64,000 nt of DNA from Thalassovita mediterranea (GTDB taxonomy: Bacteria; Pseudomonadota; Alphaproteobacteria; Rhodobacterales; Rhodobacteraceae): contig NZ_CYSF01000017.1 of assembly GCF_001458435.1 (NCBI RefSeq), forward strand, positions 248,001-312,000, in the 5' to 3' direction. Every line of letters begins with the position of its first letter. Position 1 is the stretch's first letter. Shown here piece by piece: positions 9,218 through 64,000 of the stretch. Below the pieces are notes generated by a model. That model searched no databases and had not been told where the DNA came from. It saw only the letters and a list, made by a program, of their open reading frames with translations. Made by a program: the position numbers and the translations under genes.

Positions 9218-9247
9218 AAAAGCGCCCCCGAAATCGGGGGCGCTTTT
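9218..9247. terminator. Bidirectional terminator between the orphan gene and rpoD
   Basis: A perfect stem of 13 bp (AAAAGCGCCCCCG paired with CGGGGGCGCTTTT, loop AAAT) is flanked by A-runs and T-runs on both sides. It lies 4 bp after the plus-strand stop codon and 3 bp before the end of rpoD, so it can serve both convergent transcripts. Confidence 0.92.
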
Positions 9248-9250
9248 AAA

Positions 9251-11251
9251 TCACTGATCCAGGAAGCTGCGTAGTTTGCGGCTTCGGCTGGGGTGCTTCA
9301 GCTTGCGCAGCGCTTTCGCCTCAATCTGACGAATACGTTCACGGGTTACGCTGAACTGCTGGCCCACTTCTTCCAGCGTGTGGTCGGTGTTCATGCCGAT
9401 GCCGAAACGCATCCGCAGCACACGTTCCTCACGCGGGGTGAGCGATGCCAGAACGCGGGTCGTGGTTTCCTTCAGGTTTTCCTGAATGGCGCTGTCCAGC
9501 GGCAACACGGCGTTCTTGTCTTCGATGAAATCGCCCAGCTGGCTGTCTTCTTCGTCGCCAATCGGGGTTTCCAGCGAAATCGGTTCCTTGGCGATCTTCA
9601 TCACCTTGCGGACCTTTTCCAGCGGCATCTGCAGCTTTTCTGCCAGTTCTTCCGGCGTCGGCTCACGACCGATCTCATGCAGCATCTGACGGCCGGTCCG
9701 CACCAGTTTGTTGATCGTTTCGATCATGTGAACCGGGATACGGATGGTGCGCGCCTGATCCGCGATCGAGCGGGTGATCGCCTGACGGATCCACCAGGTT
9801 GCATAAGTCGAGAATTTGTAGCCGCGGCGGTATTCAAACTTGTCCACCGCCTTCATCAGGCCGATGTTACCTTCCTGAATAAGGTCAAGGAACTGCAGAC
9901 CACGGTTGGTGTATTTCTTGGCGATCGAGATCACGAGGCGCAGGTTTGCCTCGACCATCTCTTTCTTGGCCTGACGGGCTTCTTTTTCACCCTTTTGAAC
10001 CTGCGCGACGATGCGGCGGAATTCGGGGATGTCCAGACCAACGTACTGACCAACCTGCGCCATATCGTTGCGCAGACCTTCGACCTTGTCAGTCGAGCGT
10101 TCGATGAACGCCTGCCAGCCACGGCCCGGTTTTTCCGCCATACGGTCCAGCCAAGTCGGGTCCAGTTCCGAGCCACGATAGGCCTCGATGAACTCACGAC
10201 GGTTGATGCGGGCTTGGTCAGCCAGTTTCACCATCGAGCTGTCGATCGACATGATCCGGCGGTTGATGCCGTAGAGCTGGTCGATCAGCGCTTCAATACG
10301 GTTGTTGTGCAGGTGCAGGCCGTTCACCAGCTCCACAATCTCAGACCGCAGCTTCTGATAGCGTGCTTCATCCTCTTCGGAGAAGGAACCGTCTTCGTTC
10401 AGCGTGGCCGAAATACGGGCGTCCTGCATTTCCGACAGGATTTCGAAATCTTCGGCGATGTTGTTGAGGGTATCCAGAACGCGCTGTTTCAGCGCCGCTT
10501 CCATCGCGGCCAGCGACATGTTGGCCTGTTCGTCTTCATCATCATCGTCATCATCGTTGCGGATCGGGTTGCCGTCCGCATCGTATTCCTGCTTTTCCTC
10601 TTTCTGCGCCGGTTGCGCAGTGGGGGCAGCGGTCACATTGGCGGCGCCGACGATGCCTTCTTCGTCGTCGTCATCCTCACCCATCTGGTTGCCGAAGGTG
10701 GTTTCCAGATCGATAACGTCGCGCAGCAAAATGTCTTCGGACAGAAGTTCGTCGCGCCAGATGGTGATCGCCTGGAAGGTCAGCGGGCTTTCACACAGGC
10801 CGAGGATCATGGTGTTGCGACCGGCTTCGATCCGTTTCGCAATCGCGATCTCGCCTTCACGGCTCAGCAATTCGACCGAGCCCATTTCGCGCAGGTACAT
10901 GCGCACTGGGTCGTCGGTGCGGTCCAGTTTTTCCGAGGTGCCAGAGGCCAGCGCAACCTCACCCTTGTTCGACGACACATCGACAACGGCGGTGTTTTTC
11001 TGCTCTTCCTCTTCGGCCTCTTCGTCTTCGATGATGTTGATGCCCATTTCACTGAGCATCGACATCACATCTTCGATTTGTTCCGAGGACACCTGATCCG
11101 GCGGCAGCACCTGATTGAGCTGATCATAGGTGATATAGCCGCGCTCGCGTGCCTCAGCGATCATACGCTTGACGGCGGCTTGGCTCATATCAAGGGAGAC
11201 CTCCGCGTCCTGATCGTCGGGCTTACGGTCTTCGGTGTCTTTGGCAGCCAT
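9251..11251 (-). CDS. rpoD: RNA polymerase primary sigma factor RpoD (sigma-70)
   Basis: 666 residues with all regions of a housekeeping sigma factor: region 1.1 ([29 protein letters not shown]), a long acidic linker (a [10 protein letters not shown] run near residue 235), region 2 ([26 protein letters not shown]..., then [18 protein letters not shown]), region 3, and region 4 ending [18 protein letters not shown]. The start follows TAGGAGAG. It lies 150 bp downstream of dnaG on the same strand, the remnant of the macromolecular synthesis operon. The 150-bp gap leaves room for a separate rpoD promoter. Confidence 0.98.
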
Positions 11252-24814: not shown

Positions 24815-24889
24815 GTCCCGTTCGTCTATCGGTTAGGACGCCAGGTTTTCAACCTGGAAAGAGGGGTTCGATTCCCCTACGGGATGCCA
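24815..24889 (+). tRNA. tRNA-Glu (anticodon TTC), copy 1
   Basis: 75 nt including encoded CCA. Acceptor GTCCCGT pairs with ACGGGAT (with one G-T pair), anticodon stem CCAGG/CCTGG, loop TTTTCAA with anticodon TTC at 24848-24850, T-arm GGTTCGATTCC. Confidence 0.98.
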
Positions 24890-24902
24890 TTTTGGATCGA
24901 AA

Positions 24903-24927
24903 AGTCGCCCTTTCGGGCGGCTTTTTC
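24903..24927 (+). terminator. Terminator after tRNA-Glu copy 1
   Basis: GTCGCCC and GGGCGGC pair around a TTTC loop (24905-24922), followed by five T. It shows that copy 1 is its own transcription unit. Confidence 0.8.
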
Positions 24928-24997
24928 GCATTTTGGGGCATGAATTCTGCGCGATAGATCCACTCAGAAAAAAGTGTAAATCCCTGACGTTTTCCGC

Positions 24998-25026
24998 TTG
25001 CGCGCCCCGCCCGCTTTGCCTAAAAG
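24998..25026 (+). promoter_or_regulatory. Promoter of second tRNA-Glu gene
   Basis: TTGCGC (24998-25003), 17-bp spacer, TAAAAG (25021-25026), almost identical to the copy 1 promoter. Confidence 0.7.
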
Positions 25027-25045
25027 CCACCTCACCAAACGGCTT

Positions 25046-25120
25046 GTCCCGTTCGTCTATCGGTTAGGACGCCAGGTTTTCAACCTGGAAAGAGGGGTTC
25101 GATTCCCCTACGGGATGCCA
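25046..25120 (+). tRNA. tRNA-Glu (anticodon TTC), copy 2
   Basis: Identical over all 75 nt to copy 1. The 50 bp upstream are also nearly identical, so the repeated unit includes the promoter. Confidence 0.98.
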
Positions 25121-25210
25121 TTTTTCACTGACAGTCAGCATATTCTGCACGCGTACACCCGCGCTATGAAATCGCGGTTATACCCTTGAAATTATGGCCA
25201 TATTTTCCAC

Positions 25211-25239
25211 TTGCACCGCAGCTCGGCATTGCCTAAAAC
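25211..25239 (+). promoter_or_regulatory. Promoter of third tRNA-Glu gene
   Basis: TTGCAC (25211-25216), 17-bp spacer, TAAAAC (25234-25239). The spacer has diverged from copies 1 and 2 while boxes and spacing are kept. Confidence 0.68.
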
Positions 25240-25258
25240 CCATCTCACCAAACGGCTT

Positions 25259-25333
25259 GTCCCGTTCGTCTATCGGTTAGGACGCCAGGTTTTCAACCTG
25301 GAAAGAGGGGTTCGATTCCCCTACGGGATGCCA
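25259..25333 (+). tRNA. tRNA-Glu (anticodon TTC), copy 3
   Basis: Identical to copies 1 and 2 over 75 nt. Only the last 20 bp upstream and the promoter boxes are well conserved, so it is the older or more diverged repeat unit. Confidence 0.98.
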
Positions 25334-30649: not shown

Positions 30650-32293
30650 ATGGCGCGTTTCATCTTTATTACGGGCGGCGTTGTTTCGTCGCTGGGCAAG
30701 GGTTTGGCATCGGCAGCGCTGGGATCGCTGCTGCAGGCGCGCGGCTATTCGGTCCGCCTGCGCAAGCTGGACCCCTATCTGAACGTCGATCCCGGCACGA
30801 TGAGCCCGTTTGAACATGGCGAAGTGTTCATCACAGACGATGGTGCGGAAACCGATCTGGACCTTGGTCACTACGAACGTTTCACCGGCGTACCTGCCCG
30901 CATGACCGACTCGGTCAGCTCTGGCCGCATCTATTCCAACGTTCTGGAACGGGAACGTCGCGGTGATTATCTGGGCAAAACCATTCAGGTGGTTCCGCAT
31001 GTCACCAACGAAATCAAAGACTTCATCTCCATCGGCGAGGATGAGGTTGATTTCATGCTGTGCGAGATTGGCGGCACCGTGGGCGACATCGAAGGCCTGC
31101 CCTTCTTTGAAGCGATCCGTCAGTTCAGCCATGACAAACCGCGCGGTCAGTGCATCTTCATGCACCTGACACTGCTGCCCTATCTGGCCGCCTCGGGTGA
31201 GTTGAAGACCAAACCGACCCAGCACAGCGTGAAAGAACTGCAGTCCATCGGCATCGCGCCCGACATTCTGGTGTGCCGTTCCGAACAGCCGATCCCGGAA
31301 AAAGAGCGCGAGAAGATCGCGCTGTTCTGTAACGTGCGCAAAGAGGCGGTTGTTGCCGCCTATGACCTGAAATCGATCTATGAAGCGCCGCTGGCCTACC
31401 ACCGCGAAGGTCTGGATCAGGCGGTTCTGGATGCCTTTGGAATCGCACCTGCGCCGCGCCCCGACCTCAGCAAATGGGATGACGTGGCCGACCGCATCTA
31501 CAATGCGGATGGTGAGGTGAACATCGCCATCGTCGGCAAATACACCCAGCTGGAAGACGCCTATAAATCGGTGAAAGAGGCGCTGACCCACGGCGGTCTG
31601 GCCAACAAGGTCAAGGTCAACGTGAAGTGGGTCGACTCTGAGGTGTTCGATAACGGCGACGCAGCCCCCTATCTGGAAGGCTTCCATGCGATTCTGGTGC
31701 CCGGCGGCTTTGGCGAGCGCGGGACCGAGGGCAAGATCAAAGCAGCCCAATTCGCCCGTGAGCGCAAGGTGCCCTACCTTGGCATCTGTCTGGGCATGCA
31801 GATGGCCGTGATCGAGGCCGCGCGTAACGCTGCCGGCCTGACCACCGCAGGGTCCGAAGAGTTTGACCACGAAGCGGGCGAAAAGCGTTTTGAACCCGTA
31901 GTTTACCACCTGAAAGAATGGGTTCAGGGCAACGCCACCGTGCGCCGCAAGGAAACCGACGATAAAGGCGGCACCATGCGTCTGGGCGCCTATAACGCGA
32001 CACTGGCCGAAGGGTCGAAGGTCGCGCAGGTTTACGGCAGCACCGCGATCGAGGAACGTCACCGCCACCGCTATGAGGTAGACACCAAGTACCGTGAACA
32101 GCTGGAGGCCTGCGGCCTGCAGTTCTCGGGCATGTCGCCGGACGGTCGCCTGCCTGAGATTGTGGAATGGAAAGATCACCCGTGGTTCATCGGCGTACAG
32201 TTCCACCCGGAACTGAAATCGAAACCCTTTGATCCACACCCGCTGTTCAAGGATTTCGTTCGCGCCGCTGTAGAAGCATCGCGTCTGGTTTAA
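30650..32293 (+). CDS. pyrG: CTP synthase PyrG
   Basis: 547 residues. The amidoligase domain starts [20 protein letters not shown]; the class I glutaminase domain is C-terminal with nucleophile motif LGICLGMQ and the His-Glu pair in [12 protein letters not shown]. The start at 30650 fits the family N-terminus and has GGGAG upstream; the open frame 28 codons further up has no such pattern. Confidence 0.97.
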
Positions 32294-32315
32294 ACAACCG
32301 GCATCCGATTGTACG

Positions 32316-32345
32316 AAAGGCGTCCCAAATTGGGGCGCCTTTTGT
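32316..32345 (+). terminator. Terminator of pyrG
   Basis: AAAGGCG and CGCCTTTT arms with an inner CCC/GGG pairing around AAATT, then T-rich sequence. It lies about 25 bp after the stop codon. Confidence 0.8.
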
Positions 32346-32440
32346 TTTGGCCGCTGGACGCCTGCCCCTGCCACTGCCCAATCTTGACCTTTGCTGCTGC
32401 GCACCGCACCTTTGCGACCATCAACAGAAAGGAATGCCCG

Positions 32441-32734
32441 ATGACCAAAGCGTACTGGGTGGCCCATGTGGACGTAAACGACCCTGAGGCCTACGAAAAA
32501 TACCGTGCAGCCAACGCCGAGGCGTTTGGAAAATATGGCGCAAAATTCCTGATCCGTGGTGGCGCCCAGCAACAGATGGAGGGCAGCAGCCGCGCCCGTA
32601 CCGTGGTGCTGGAGTTCAAGGATTACGACACCGCGATGGCCTGCTACCAATCGCCGGAATATCAAGCCGCCAAGGCGCTGCGCGATCCGGTATCTACAGG
32701 CGATCTGGTGATCGTCGAAGGGTATGACGGCTAA
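32441..32734 (+). CDS. DUF1330 family protein
   Basis: 97 residues with the ferredoxin-like pattern of DUF1330: KAYWVAHVDVNDPEAYEKYRAAN, then FLIRGGAQQQMEG and VVLEFKDYDTAMACYQSPEYQAAKALR. A dimeric alpha/beta-barrel protein of unknown function. The start at 32441 follows AAAGGA. Confidence 0.88.
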   Translation: MTKAYWVAHVDVNDPEAYEKYRAANAEAFGKYGAKFLIRGGAQQQMEGSSRARTVVLEFKDYDTAMACYQSPEYQAAKALRDPVSTGDLVIVEGYDG

Positions 32735-39054: not shown

Positions 39055-39080
39055 AGGGGCGCCCAATTGGGCGCCCCTTT
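39055..39080. terminator. Terminator at the end of the amine-utilisation-like operon
   Basis: A perfect 24-bp palindrome (AGGGGCGCCCAA and its complement) with T on the plus side. It lies between convergent genes and can also act on dabA. Confidence 0.88.
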
Positions 39081-61130: not shown

Positions 61131-61643
61131 TTACTTCAACGGGATGCTCACCCGCACCTGCAGCGTCTCAAGCCCTGGGTTAACCGCACGGATATCCGCG
61201 TTCGAACGGTGGTCATAGCTGACCCCAAGACGCACGCCGCTGCGGAAATTATAGCCGACCTCGACACCGGACCGGAATTCGATCGGGAACCCCAGATCCG
61301 GCCCGTCGCCCTGTATATAGATCCCCGGCATCGCATGCAGCTGAACATAGGCACGGCCATCGGCAAAATCCTTGGTCCACATCTGACCGAAGCCCAGCCA
61401 AGCATCACCAGTATCGGTAACCGACAGGCCAATGGCGTTTTGGAATGGGCCGAAACGGTGATCCATCTCATAACGCGCATAGATTTCTTCGCCGATGAAC
61501 TCTTCCTGAAACTGCACACGGCCGGCAGCGATACTGAACCGCTCCTGCTCTGGCGCACGGGCCAGACAGCCCGTGTCACAGTAGTTGAGCCCCATATCCG
61601 TCAGTCCAACAATCGCAAACAGTAGCGCAAATGTTCCGTCCAT
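61131..61643 (-). CDS. PagL-type lipid A 3-O-deacylase (acyloxyacyl hydrolase family)
   Basis: 170 residues from the ATG at 61643, which follows GGAGGGA. It is an outer-membrane beta-barrel enzyme that removes an acyl chain from lipid A. The catalytic residues H145, S147 and E159 (YDHRSNAD...GLETLQV) have the same spacing as His126, Ser128 and Glu140 of Pseudomonas PagL. The N-terminus has a hydrophobic stretch and two cysteines; a cleavage site is not clear. A longer frame of 29 residues is unlikely. The 304 bp upstream hold no gene, only the tRNA-Phe promoter. Confidence 0.82.
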   Translation of the reverse strand: MDGTFALLFAIVGLTDMGLNYCDTGCLARAPEQERFSIAAGRVQFQEEFIGEEIYARYEMDHRFGPFQNAIGLSVTDTGDAWLGFGQMWTKDFADGRAYVQLHAMPGIYIQGDGPDLGFPIEFRSGVEVGYNFRSGVRLGVSYDHRSNADIRAVNPGLETLQVRVSIPLK

Positions 61644-61888
61644 CTGTCCCTCCGGGCAATGCCTCTCGCACGTCAATGCCACAGGTTGACCAGATGCAGG
61701 CAACATTTTCAAGAATAGACAGGCAATCACTCAGCGATAGTTGCCCCATGGGAACAACACTGGCGCCCATAGCTGTTCGCCCCTTTGTGCAGCCGCAACC
61801 AAGCCCCCCTGATTTCCCCCAGAAAGGACGCCAGATCAGAGCCTTAGGAAAAAAATTCGATTTTCGACAGATTTTTTGCAAATGCCTC

Positions 61889-61947: not shown

Positions 61948-62022
61948 GCCCGGGTAGCTCAGGGGTAGAGCAGTGGATTGAAAATCCTCGTGTCGGTGGT
62001 TCGATTCCGCCCCCGGGCACCA
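61948..62022 (+). tRNA. tRNA-Phe (anticodon GAA)
   Basis: 75 nt with encoded CCA. Acceptor GCCCGGG/CCCGGGC, D-arm GCTC/GAGC, loop TTGAAAA with anticodon GAA at 61980-61982, T-arm GGTGG/CCGCC. The anticodon stem GTGGA/TCCTC has one T-T mismatch. The last 14 nt belong to the left inverted repeat of the integrase module. Confidence 0.97.
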
Positions 62023-62088
62023 TAGCATCCGCTAAGCAACTGTTAAGCCTCAGCTTTATCTAAGGATGGAGCTATCGTAGAACATGGC
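62009..62088 (+). repeat. Left copy of the ~80-bp inverted repeat
   Basis: 80 bp, from the last bases of tRNA-Phe (GCCCCCGGGCACCA) through the integrase ATG (AACATGGC). It matches the reverse complement of 63257-63337 at 78 of 80 positions (differences at 62038 and 62049) with one extra base in the right copy. Confidence 0.97.
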
Positions 62089-63250
62089 GGAGTACAAAAC
62101 TGCACCTCACTCATTTGTAAAAAACGGTGTCTACTATTTCGTGCGGCGGGTCCCCAGAGATCTCCTTCACCACTACACATCACAGAAAATATCCTTCTCG
62201 CTTCGGACGAGGTCAGCATCTGTTGCAACCTCTCGTGCCCTGAGAGCGGCACAACGACTCGACGAGCATTGGTATTTTCTGAGGATCAACGACTGCGACC
62301 TGCCCGGAAAGCACATGCTTCGGCTCGCGCAAAACACCAATGCAATGCCCGCTTCGGCTCCAACTGCCAACACGGTGAAGCTCTCAGAAGCCGTAGGCAT
62401 CTACTTGGGGCTAAAAGGCCAAGGACGTCCTGATACATTCCATCGAGCTGCAGAGCGCTCTTGTGGCTACGTACTCGACGCTTGTGGGGACAAGGATATC
62501 ACCGCCTACACAAAGGCAGATGCGAACACCTTCCGCGACTCTCTTATTAAACGAGGTCTGGCAGGCAGCAGCATGACCCGGGTCTTTGGAACCGTACGTT
62601 CGGTCTTCAACTTTGCTTCCGCCGAGGTGGGCCTCGATATCCCCAACCCATTCAGCAAAGTGTACTACGATCGCAACTCAGGCGTTGAAGAACGTGAGCC
62701 GCTTACGCTCGAAGCCATTCGCATCTTGCAGAATGAGTGCCGCAAACTCGACGATGACCTCCGCTGGCTGGTCGCCTTGGTGTCCGATACTGGGATGCGT
62801 CTTGCTGAGGCCGCAGGACTATCTCTGGAAGACCTCATGCTGGACGCCCCAATACCTCATGTTGTCATCCAAGAGCATCCTTGGCGGCGCTTAAAGACTG
62901 CAGGCAGCACCAGGTCAGTCCCTCTCGTGGGCAACGCGCTATGGGCTGCTCAACGTATCCGCGACAACGTCAAAGATGGCGAGTACGCCTTTCCTCGATA
63001 CAACAAGAATGGTCAGACTAATGCCAACTCAGCGAGTGCGGCACTAAACAAATGGATGAAGCCATACGTAAGCAACAAAGCCACGATGCACGGCTTTCGC
63101 CATTCAATGCGCGACCGTCTCAGGGCGGTTGAGTGCCCTGCTGACATTGTAGATCAGATTGGTGGGTGGCAAACCGAGGGAGTAGGACATGGCTACGGTC
63201 GAGGATATCCTTTGGAGGTGCTGGGCAAATGGATGCGAACTGCAGCGTAG
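62084..63250 (+). CDS. Tyrosine recombinase/integrase
   Basis: 388 residues. The N-terminal part (MAEYKTAPHSFVKNGVYYFVRRVPRDL) is the small DUF6538-type domain common in alphaproteobacterial integrases. A SAM-like core-binding domain covers about residues 100-190. The catalytic domain has R239 (DTGMRLAEAAG), H336-x-x-R339 (MHGFRHSM), W362 (IGGWQ) and the nucleophile Y371 (GHGYGRGY). It begins 62 bp after tRNA-Phe, the usual setting of an integrase using a tRNA 3' end as attachment site. Its base composition is less GC-rich than the chromosome. The ATG lies inside the left inverted repeat and the right repeat starts 7 bp after the stop codon. No strong ribosome site. Confidence 0.93.
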   Translation: MAEYKTAPHSFVKNGVYYFVRRVPRDLLHHYTSQKISFSLRTRSASVATSRALRAAQRLDEHWYFLRINDCDLPGKHMLRLAQNTNAMPASAPTANTVKLSEAVGIYLGLKGQGRPDTFHRAAERSCGYVLDACGDKDITAYTKADANTFRDSLIKRGLAGSSMTRVFGTVRSVFNFASAEVGLDIPNPFSKVYYDRNSGVEEREPLTLEAIRILQNECRKLDDDLRWLVALVSDTGMRLAEAAGLSLEDLMLDAPIPHVVIQEHPWRRLKTAGSTRSVPLVGNALWAAQRIRDNVKDGEYAFPRYNKNGQTNANSASAALNKWMKPYVSNKATMHGFRHSMRDRLRAVECPADIVDQIGGWQTEGVGHGYGRGYPLEVLGKWMRTAA

Positions 63251-63256
63251 CCAGTG

Positions 63257-63337
63257 GCCATGTTCTACGATAGCTCCATCCTTAGATAAAGCTGATGCTT
63301 AACAGTAGCTTAGCGGATGCTATGGTGCCCCGGGGGC
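63257..63337 (-). repeat. Right copy of the ~80-bp inverted repeat
   Basis: 81 bp in opposite orientation to 62009-62088. It carries a copy of the tRNA acceptor end with CCA and of the integrase upstream region with its ATG, now facing into the integrase from the 3' side. A frame from this ATG closes after 22 codons, so it is not a gene. Confidence 0.97.
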
Positions 63338-63787
63338 TGCTGGGTATGACCCTTCTGTTCCCGTTACAGGCACCGCATCAGCTTAAAACCTCAGCTAAAC
63401 AACGGTTATCGACCCCAGAGATAAACCGTCAAGAGGCACCTCTTGTTCTACGGTATGTTCTACGGTGTCTGTAAGCCCATGGGACGAGCTGTCGGGGTCG
63501 ATAAGGACAGCTTGCGACCTTGACTGTATCGGACTGGATATTGCGTTCCAGTGCTCTCTCATAGGCGCGGAAAGCGAGTGGTGCCCCAAGGGGGAAACAT
63601 GGAAACTGGTTATTTTGTCAGGTGGCTGAGATATGTGACCCCTGTGAGTTTTGAGGGTGATCATGGTGGGGAAGAAGGAAGCCAAAGCTATCAGTTACGG
63701 GTCCCCCTATGGGGAGCTATAGCTATTACCCATGGGTCATACTGTTGGGTGTATCACACCATCATGGTACCCCCTCAATCATAAGCC
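63338..63787. other. Repeat-rich stretch without a convincing gene
   Basis: Contains two direct repeats TGTTCTACGGT (63444-63454, 63456-63466) related to TGTTCTACGAT inside the right inverted repeat, an inverted pair TTATCGACCCC/GGGGTCGATAA (63406-63416 and 63494-63504), a near-palindrome AAGAGG-CA-CCTCTT (63431-63444), AGCTATAGCT (63715-63724) and GGTGT-ATC-ACACC (63748-63760). Open frames of 77 and 96 codons have no good start sites. It could hold recombinase arm sites and promoters. Confidence 0.5.
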
Positions 63788-64000
63788 TCAAGCTGCAAGC
63801 AGAAGCTCTTCCTCAGCTTCTACAACAGCTTCATCTTGAGCCTCATCAACACCTTGCAGCTCTTCCTTGGTGATGAGTTCAACTGCACCCTCCTGACCTG
63901 TCCTCTTCTTGAAGACCTCCAGCATGACAGCTTTGGCTTGGGCTGCGGAGGAGGCTGGGACGATGATTGCATCGTGGATGGGGAGTGCAACGATGTTCAT
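63788..64000 (-). CDS. C-terminal part of an unrecognised protein of the mobile region
   Basis: At least 70 residues; the frame is open to the window edge, so the ATG at 64000 need not be the start. The visible part begins MNIVALPIHDAIIVPASSAA and ends in an acidic tail (EAVVEAEEELLLAA). The hydrophobic strand followed by His-Asp recalls the motif C region of family A polymerases and related phage or plasmid replication proteins, but this is weak evidence. It faces the integrase. Confidence 0.45.
   Translation of the reverse strand: MNIVALPIHDAIIVPASSAAQAKAVMLEVFKKRTGQEGAVELITKEELQGVDEAQDEAVVEAEEELLLAA

Follow-up and report, generated by a model that had tools for sequence, protein, structure and literature searches.

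Integrative elements are usually pictured as carrying one attP each. In the yeast 2-micron plasmid, the FLP recombinase gene and the other genes are parted by two inverted repeats, each of which contains a recombination site (FRT), and a role in plasmid copy number is described for FLP. In Hin-type invertible segments, the recombinase is encoded within the segment that its own inverted sites enclose. ICEclc differs from the element described here in being conjugative, and a second attP in inverted orientation is not known for it. A report on Thermococcales pTN3 describes a tyrosine integrase that, in vitro, inverts a DNA segment flanked by attP sites in inverted orientation (PMC5495485). According to that report, the inverted attP pair is a test substrate and the pTN3 integrase gene is disrupted on integration, and in these points pTN3 differs from the present case. 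Among the matches listed for the open-access literature (subscription papers and preprints excluded), none describes an inverted duplicate attP around an integrase gene.

We analysed a 64,000-nt window of the Thalassovita mediterranea genome (G000; contig C17, positions 248001-312000), which would hold the left end of a mobile element integrated at tRNA-Phe (Table 1). The integrase (int) of this element matches DUF6538 at its N-terminus (E = 1.9e-18), Phage_integrase (PF00589; 1.4e-13) and phrog_1 (1.2e-35). Five of its residues, R239, H336, R339, W362 and Y371, are invariant among 10 aligned sequences; we take them to be the catalytic residues of a tyrosine recombinase, with Y371 probably the catalytic tyrosine, judging by motif spacing. 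The element and its relatives resemble tRNA-targeting islands in having a tyrosine recombinase beside a tRNA gene, a site at the tRNA 3' end, direct cores at the two ends and cargo of the restriction-modification type. They differ in that a second, complete-looking inverted attP follows closely after int and that its flank is repeated, inverted, at the far end, in line with the original prediction that this is not the arrangement of a standard tRNA island. Elsewhere in the window, a PagL-like lipid A deacylase gene lies directly ahead of tRNA-Phe on the minus strand (61131-61730), and three consecutive tRNA-Glu(TTC) genes occupy positions 24815-25333, with start-to-start spacings of 231 and 213 bp.

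Table 1 Features of the tRNA-Phe end of the window, numbered from its first letter.
Feature	Position	Strand	Basis
tRNA-Phe(GAA), the gene targeted by integration; attL core formed by its 3' end	61948-62022	+	ARAGORN
Left repeat arm, comprising attL core (13-14 tRNA nt), leader and start codon	62009-62088	+	
CGTAGAACATG, a putative arm-type site that runs into the start codon	62076-62086	+	sequence
Tyrosine integrase ORF, 388 aa, DUF6538 and Phage_integrase	62084-63250	+	domain matches
Right arm: inverted leader and core of the putative second attachment site (attP2)	63257-63337	-	
attP2 flank R (minimum extent)	63338-63561	-	matches end of contig C18
Weak promoter-like TTGACG-17-GATAAC, directed toward the core and the int 3' end	63405-63433	-	inferred
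Two putative direct arm-type repeats, CGTAGAACA twice	63444-63464	-	sequence; like repeats in relatives
Element gene, 3' part, matching phrog_4756 (unknown function) and continuing to the contig end	63788-64000	-	

We found an inverted repeat flanking int, in which 62010-62088 pairs with 63257-63335 over 79 ungapped nucleotides (96% identity); blastn of the window against itself gives this match an E of 5e-30. Read by eye from position 62009, the arms are 78/80 identical with one indel, as the original prediction had described them. The left arm contains the final 13-14 nt of tRNA-Phe, a 61-nt leader and the int start codon, and the right arm begins 6 nt past the int stop codon. That the tRNA end, the leader and the ATG lie inside the left repeat had been predicted correctly, with the correction that these last 13-14 nt are all of the tRNA that is included; tRNA end and start codon are within the arms and would hence be kept in either orientation, as was also foreseen. 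The only other inverted matches in the window at E<1e-3 are two palindromes, at 9218-9247 (30 nt, 93%) and 39055-39078 (24 nt, 100%). In the whole genome, copies of the leader are found in the two arms only. The inverted repeat is real and lies far beyond chance. An artefact of assembly could be suspected from the contig ends, since the contig of the window stops 788 bp past the right arm (125 bp past the window) and 7 of 15 loci stop less than 1 kb after the integrase match (L032, L033, L034, L037, L038, L040 and L046). The arms, however, differ by three mismatches and so are not a duplicated assembly fragment, the same structure is present in closed genomes, including that of Ruegeria sp. 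TM1040, and contig ends at such places are expected from the long repeats described below. We regard an artefact or a chance repeat as practically impossible, the closed genomes ruling it out.

We then surveyed relatives of the integrase among genome contigs (15 loci) and in 394 genomes of the family (28 matches at 1e-60), 385 genomes of the class (10 at 1e-70) and 390 genomes of the order (29 at 1e-70), with the own genome included in each of the three sets. A single script turned 74 sources into 79 integrase entries, the loci left out being mostly gene fragments. Twenty-one of the 79 were dropped for a truncated protein, less than 120 bp of 3' flank or less than 40% identity to the query set, and the 58 that were counted have a near-complete integrase and at least 120 bp of 3' flank. 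Using a threshold of at least 55 bp and at least 88% identity, we found an inverted repeat around the integrase gene in 51 of these 58 entries, with a median length of 86 bp and 100% identity in 29. Two entries are duplicates, so the repeat accompanies 49 of 56 distinct near-complete integrases, the window's included; conservation of the 3' inverted copy, on which the original prediction was made to depend, is the rule, and a missing copy is the exception (7 of 56). The seven entries without a good repeat are a second G053A copy (77% only), G383, G137C1, G002, which belongs to the same genus as the window, G611a (21 bp), G700C47 (17 bp) and G549C7. By comparison, the flanks (about 1.5 kb either way) of 29 other Phage_integrase loci in ten of the same genomes contained no such repeat, these controls being tyrosine recombinases in general and not only tRNA-integrated ones. 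The G392 integrase is present as two complementary pieces on two contigs (C10:165648-166124 and C57:3750-4457), and L043, L045 and L077 are among the genomes in which only an N-terminal integrase piece beside a tRNA gene matches.

The arms are matched to the tRNA gene that each element occupies. Among the 41 entries with a called tRNA, 15 anticodon types are represented, with Phe, Thr, Leu, Ser, Arg, Gly and SeC among the targets, and in 40 of them the arms reach into the tRNA gene from its 3' end: they take in the last 13-17 nt in 36, 21, 22, 27 and 35 nt in four, and none in G862. Both repeats of the window carry the recombination core, as the original prediction had supposed. The inverted copy fits the occupied tRNA even among related elements within one genome, as in G053 (elements A and C, at tRNA-Ser GGA and TGA) and G164 (C4 and C6, at tRNA-Thr TGT and CGT). 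More than one element per genome occurs in G053, G164, G777 and G611. The integrase family is found in several families of one class, which we read as Alphaproteobacteria from the named relatives. A phage or plasmid form of the element was also sought with the integrase by tblastn and was rejected: one plasmid record matched, the TM1040 megaplasmid that carries the integrated form, together with two distant phage records (67% of the protein, 30% identity), and no episome was among them. In viral contigs, two single-protein scans gave no integrase match, and an alignment scan gave four loci, one of which (L118) has an 84-bp inverted repeat at 100% identity.

As a further correction to the original prediction, the repeat around int forms half of a larger design, as the sequence to the right of the right arm (to 63561 at least) is also repeated. 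In the closed sequence of TM1040 (NC_008043), core and R flank at L117 21249-22396 recur inverted at 31545-32692, identical at 1148 of 1148 positions; each R copy contains a BRO gene, and a type I restriction-modification system lies between them. We found such an R/R' pair in 15 of the 79 entries, with lengths of 3183 bp (100%) in G247, 2265 bp (100%) in G982, 1251 bp (100%) in G898, 588 bp (99.8%) in G1008a, 767 bp (98.3%) in G053C and 729 bp (95.3%) in G053A. When the entries are limited to those that bear the inverted repeat and have at least 9 kb of 3' flank, the pair is present in 12 of 22, and R' was not found within the stretch examined in the other 10. The right arm looks like the inner half of a second, complete-looking inverted attachment site, attP2, with the order leader-core-R. 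The far R' copy terminates in a core that is direct to the tRNA end, and in 9 of the 15 entries with an R pair the cores of attL, attP2 and attR are identical, the others differing or not being clearly delimited. In G611b and G219, attL and attP2 agree against attR, and in G700C22 and G611c, attP2 and attR agree against attL; these disagreements are possibly snapshots of tRNA retargeting.

An uninterrupted target site is seen in a relative. G943, the sole genome to span the joint among 30 other genomes of that genus, has an empty tRNA-Leu site that aligns with positions 4-599 of the 601-nt joined flanks of the G1008a element at 75% identity. For G898, the match is suggestive, in that the two flanks match G336 as separate pieces with about 127 bp between them, not as one alignment. 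The far core and the empty site together indicate that the element is bounded by the tRNA core on one side and the far core on the other. In L035, a direct 47-bp tRNA copy is located at 10390-10435 with no recognisable R' alongside. From these comparisons of sequence, we consider the architecture, two nested inverted repeats with tRNA-matched cores and these boundaries, to be near certain.

The right junction of the window's own element appears to lie on another contig. Contig C18 ends in a 238-bp stretch that matches positions 63324-63561 (core and R) at 100% identity, with non-leader DNA joined at the core. We read this contig end as the element's own attR, since no further copy of leader or integrase was found in the genome. 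A direct third copy of the tRNA end, which the original prediction proposed to look for, exists at the end of C18 here and as R'-core in closed relatives. Adjacency of C17 and C18 was not confirmed by synteny with congeners, and a comparison that included an extra G007 sequence did not place C18 beside the tRNA. The cargo of the window's element is unassembled and its putative attR is read from a contig end; positions 63562-64000 have no other match in the genome, and a 1077-aa primase/helicase-like query has none there. Beyond the core, the last 600 bp of C18 (L047) weakly resemble the leader and integrase start of this family in decayed form (best E 0.001), perhaps an older, possibly tandem, element of the same kind. 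With a tyrosine recombinase, integration at a tRNA 3' end and direct cores at the ends (in the own genome by way of the C18 end), the element belongs with tRNA-targeting integrative elements. Relaxase or conjugation genes, as expected of an integrative and conjugative element, are not annotated in the TM1040 element, whose gene table is stated to be incomplete, and the window's own element is incomplete as well.

Both R and the leader contain conserved motifs. Aligning the ten closer attP2 sequences, we found that the conserved blocks of R are CGTAGNNC in two tandem copies, a GCCTGTTGAC-like block, and GTGCCTGTAACGGGA adjoining the core. A third CGTAGNNCATG lies in the leader over the start codon (CGTAGAACATG in the window), and its two variable bases agree with those of both R sites, being common to all three, in 8 of 10 aligned sequences (the exceptions are L033 and L038). 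More distant family members have different motifs at the same places. We infer that these conserved motifs are putative arm sites of the integrase. R may also contain a promoter, as the TTGAC of the promoter-like sequence is kept at its place in 9 of the 10 closer sequences and in 12 of the 19 aligned attP2 sequences that reach there; no promoter in R was present in the output of a consensus scan.

We next compared the orientation of int and of the cargo. In all 39 distinct called cases (41 entries), int is directed away from the tRNA; no entry with the inverted repeat has a tRNA called at the 3' side of the integrase gene, and no int-reversed copy was found among these 39. Ten further entries with the repeat lack a tRNA call, and in one of them, G247, a tRNA end is visible ahead of int. 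The original prediction suggested that the integrase could invert its own gene, and this constant orientation argues against free flipping of int in the chromosome. The cargo behaves differently. When G053A and G053C, which are about 90% alike, are aligned, their integrase ends match in inverted orientation and their 5.1-kb cargo in direct orientation, indicating that the cargo is flipped relative to int. Five elements have a helicase-like gene on the integrase side (L036, G378, G306, G053A and G1008a), three have it on the far side (TM1040, G053C and L035) and two on both sides (G247 and G982), the far end being unreached or unrecognised in L036, G378, G306 and L035. The element thus resembles a Hin-type segment in that int lies, by sequence, between its own inverted sites, and the cargo occurs in both orientations and int in one. 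It differs from such a segment in using a tyrosine and not a serine recombinase, in having one site fused to a tRNA gene, and in that the reversed state is unseen.

The content of the cargo varies as well. TM1040 carries the type I restriction-modification system, L035 a methylase and an HNH protein, and G053C a sulfotransferase-TPR protein. In G053A, a protein of 1077 aa has matches among phage primase families. A P-loop protein of about 634 aa is found in several elements (L036:6557-8461, L091:3850-5775 and the R arms of G247); it has no match among PHROG or NCBIfam families and none above the cut-off in Pfam, and in G053 it is replaced by the 1077-aa protein. Cargo that varies among relatives and stands in either orientation, in genomes that may hold several elements, would be expected if attP2 and attR served as an inverted pair for cassette exchange, with co-resident elements swapping their cargo and leaving the int end and its tRNA-matched core fixed. 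Plain gain and loss of cargo explains the diversity too, and we consider cassette exchange quite unlikely as the main role of the sites.

The att copies of one element can be more alike than those of different elements. Arms and the first 300 positions of R are identical within G053A and within G053C, yet the two elements differ from one another at 8 of 121 positions in the arm and at 21 of 300 in R, so the sequences of these att copies have evolved in concert. The R mismatches of G053A, G053C and G777b (34, 13 and 4) are all at a distance of at least about 300 bp from the core. Among the eight imperfect R pairs, the stretch near the core is free of mismatches in only three, mismatches nearer the core being present in G219, G611b, G700C22, G508C48 and G1008a, and the leader arms of G611c, G777d, G700C22 and G219 have 4-9 mismatches. 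Homogenisation is therefore clear in the sequences of some elements, and its link to the core is not consistent. The R arms, at 0.2-3 kb, are long enough for ordinary RecA inversion and homogenisation.

Twenty elements with the repeat, taken from all such entries less two duplicates and with no filter for completeness, have a gap of more than 200 bp between int and the right arm, and in 14 of the 20 the longest convergent ORF starts about 80 bp or less from the inner edge of the right arm, a count made without a random control. Seven of eight convergent ORFs that we scanned have a Pfam domain (DUF218, MAPEG, GNAT, DUF1330, SOUL, methyltransferase and DUF2938) and one has none. A captured gene may thus also be expressed by way of the inverted leader. 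Such a role would sit well with an alternative in which the integrase uses attL, attR and one attP, while the inverted copy is passive or regulatory and is kept alike by RecA or template switching; at the RNA level, the leader with its RBS and AUG would pair with leader', or antisense RNA from R would silence int. This explanation draws further on the arms, which hold leader and start codon, begin no more than 60 bp from the aligned integrase end in 34 of the 51 entries and are identical to each other in 29 of the 51. An RNA lock, however, has no need of a tRNA-matched core, arm repeats or an R/R' pair, yet all of these recur, and we think the alternative unlikely.

We propose instead a tRNA-integrated element whose circular form carries two inverted attP sites, with Int acting on all sites under the control of orientation, a reading to which we give an even chance; our confidence in the mechanism, as against the architecture, is moderate. 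In the circle, int would be flanked on both sides by complete-looking attP sites of the order leader-core-R, inverted to each other, and these would separate int from the cargo. Integration by one of them would yield the order tRNA-core-leader-int, inverted attP2, cargo, R'-core and chromosome. Recombination between attL and attR, which are direct, would excise the element, and recombination between inverted sites would flip int or cargo relative to each other. Int, rather than RecA, would presumably carry out these inversions. In elements such as TM1040 the two attP copies have the same sequence locally, so that the enzyme should integrate by either and place int either way; as only one int direction is seen, the other is expected to be unstable or transient, and the simplest reason would be expression. 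R would lie upstream of the int start both in the circle and once int is reversed, whereas in the forward integrated form it would face the int 3' end, leaving only the tRNA-fused leader upstream of int. R would then supply no sense and perhaps antisense transcription, and the forward orientation would probably lock int off and with it the integrated state. A parallel for orientation-dependent int expression may be Pcirc of ICEclc, an outward-facing constitutive promoter (PMC9286271, PMC2892462) that a table in one of these papers lists as the promoter of the integrase transcript. A more specific version, which we put forward tentatively and at less than an even chance, places the integrase in its own invertible segment, off when fused to the tRNA and on when joined to the R promoter; the enzyme would flip its gene after integration, which would thereby lock itself, and the site pair would flip or exchange cargo and rematch the cores to new tRNA genes.

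The proposed circle would have the topology of the 2-micron plasmid, with inverted, site-bearing repeats that part int from the rest, here deduced from integrated forms. It differs from that plasmid in being bacterial and located in the chromosome at tRNA genes, and it is known from integrated sequence alone. The shared topology raises the prospect of a similar function, in which attP-attP inversion in a replicating circle would lead to double rolling-circle replication and more copies. The phage-primase-like protein of G053A and a helicase-like ORF, or part of one, in ten elements would suit such amplification. Some complete small elements, such as G777d (4.3 kb), nevertheless have no match to these helicases, and the plasmid and phage records above included no episome; we judge this function very unlikely. 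Overall, the original reading of the locus is supported in part.

This family of elements keeps two inverted attP sites around int, both matched to the occupied tRNA. If the pair is used, it would represent a new coupling of integration to the control of the integrase, and would allow defence cargo to be inverted or swapped and the tRNA target to be changed. It would also explain why many draft assemblies break just past such integrases, hiding the cargo. Ruegeria sp. TM1040 offers an experimental system for double-attP elements.
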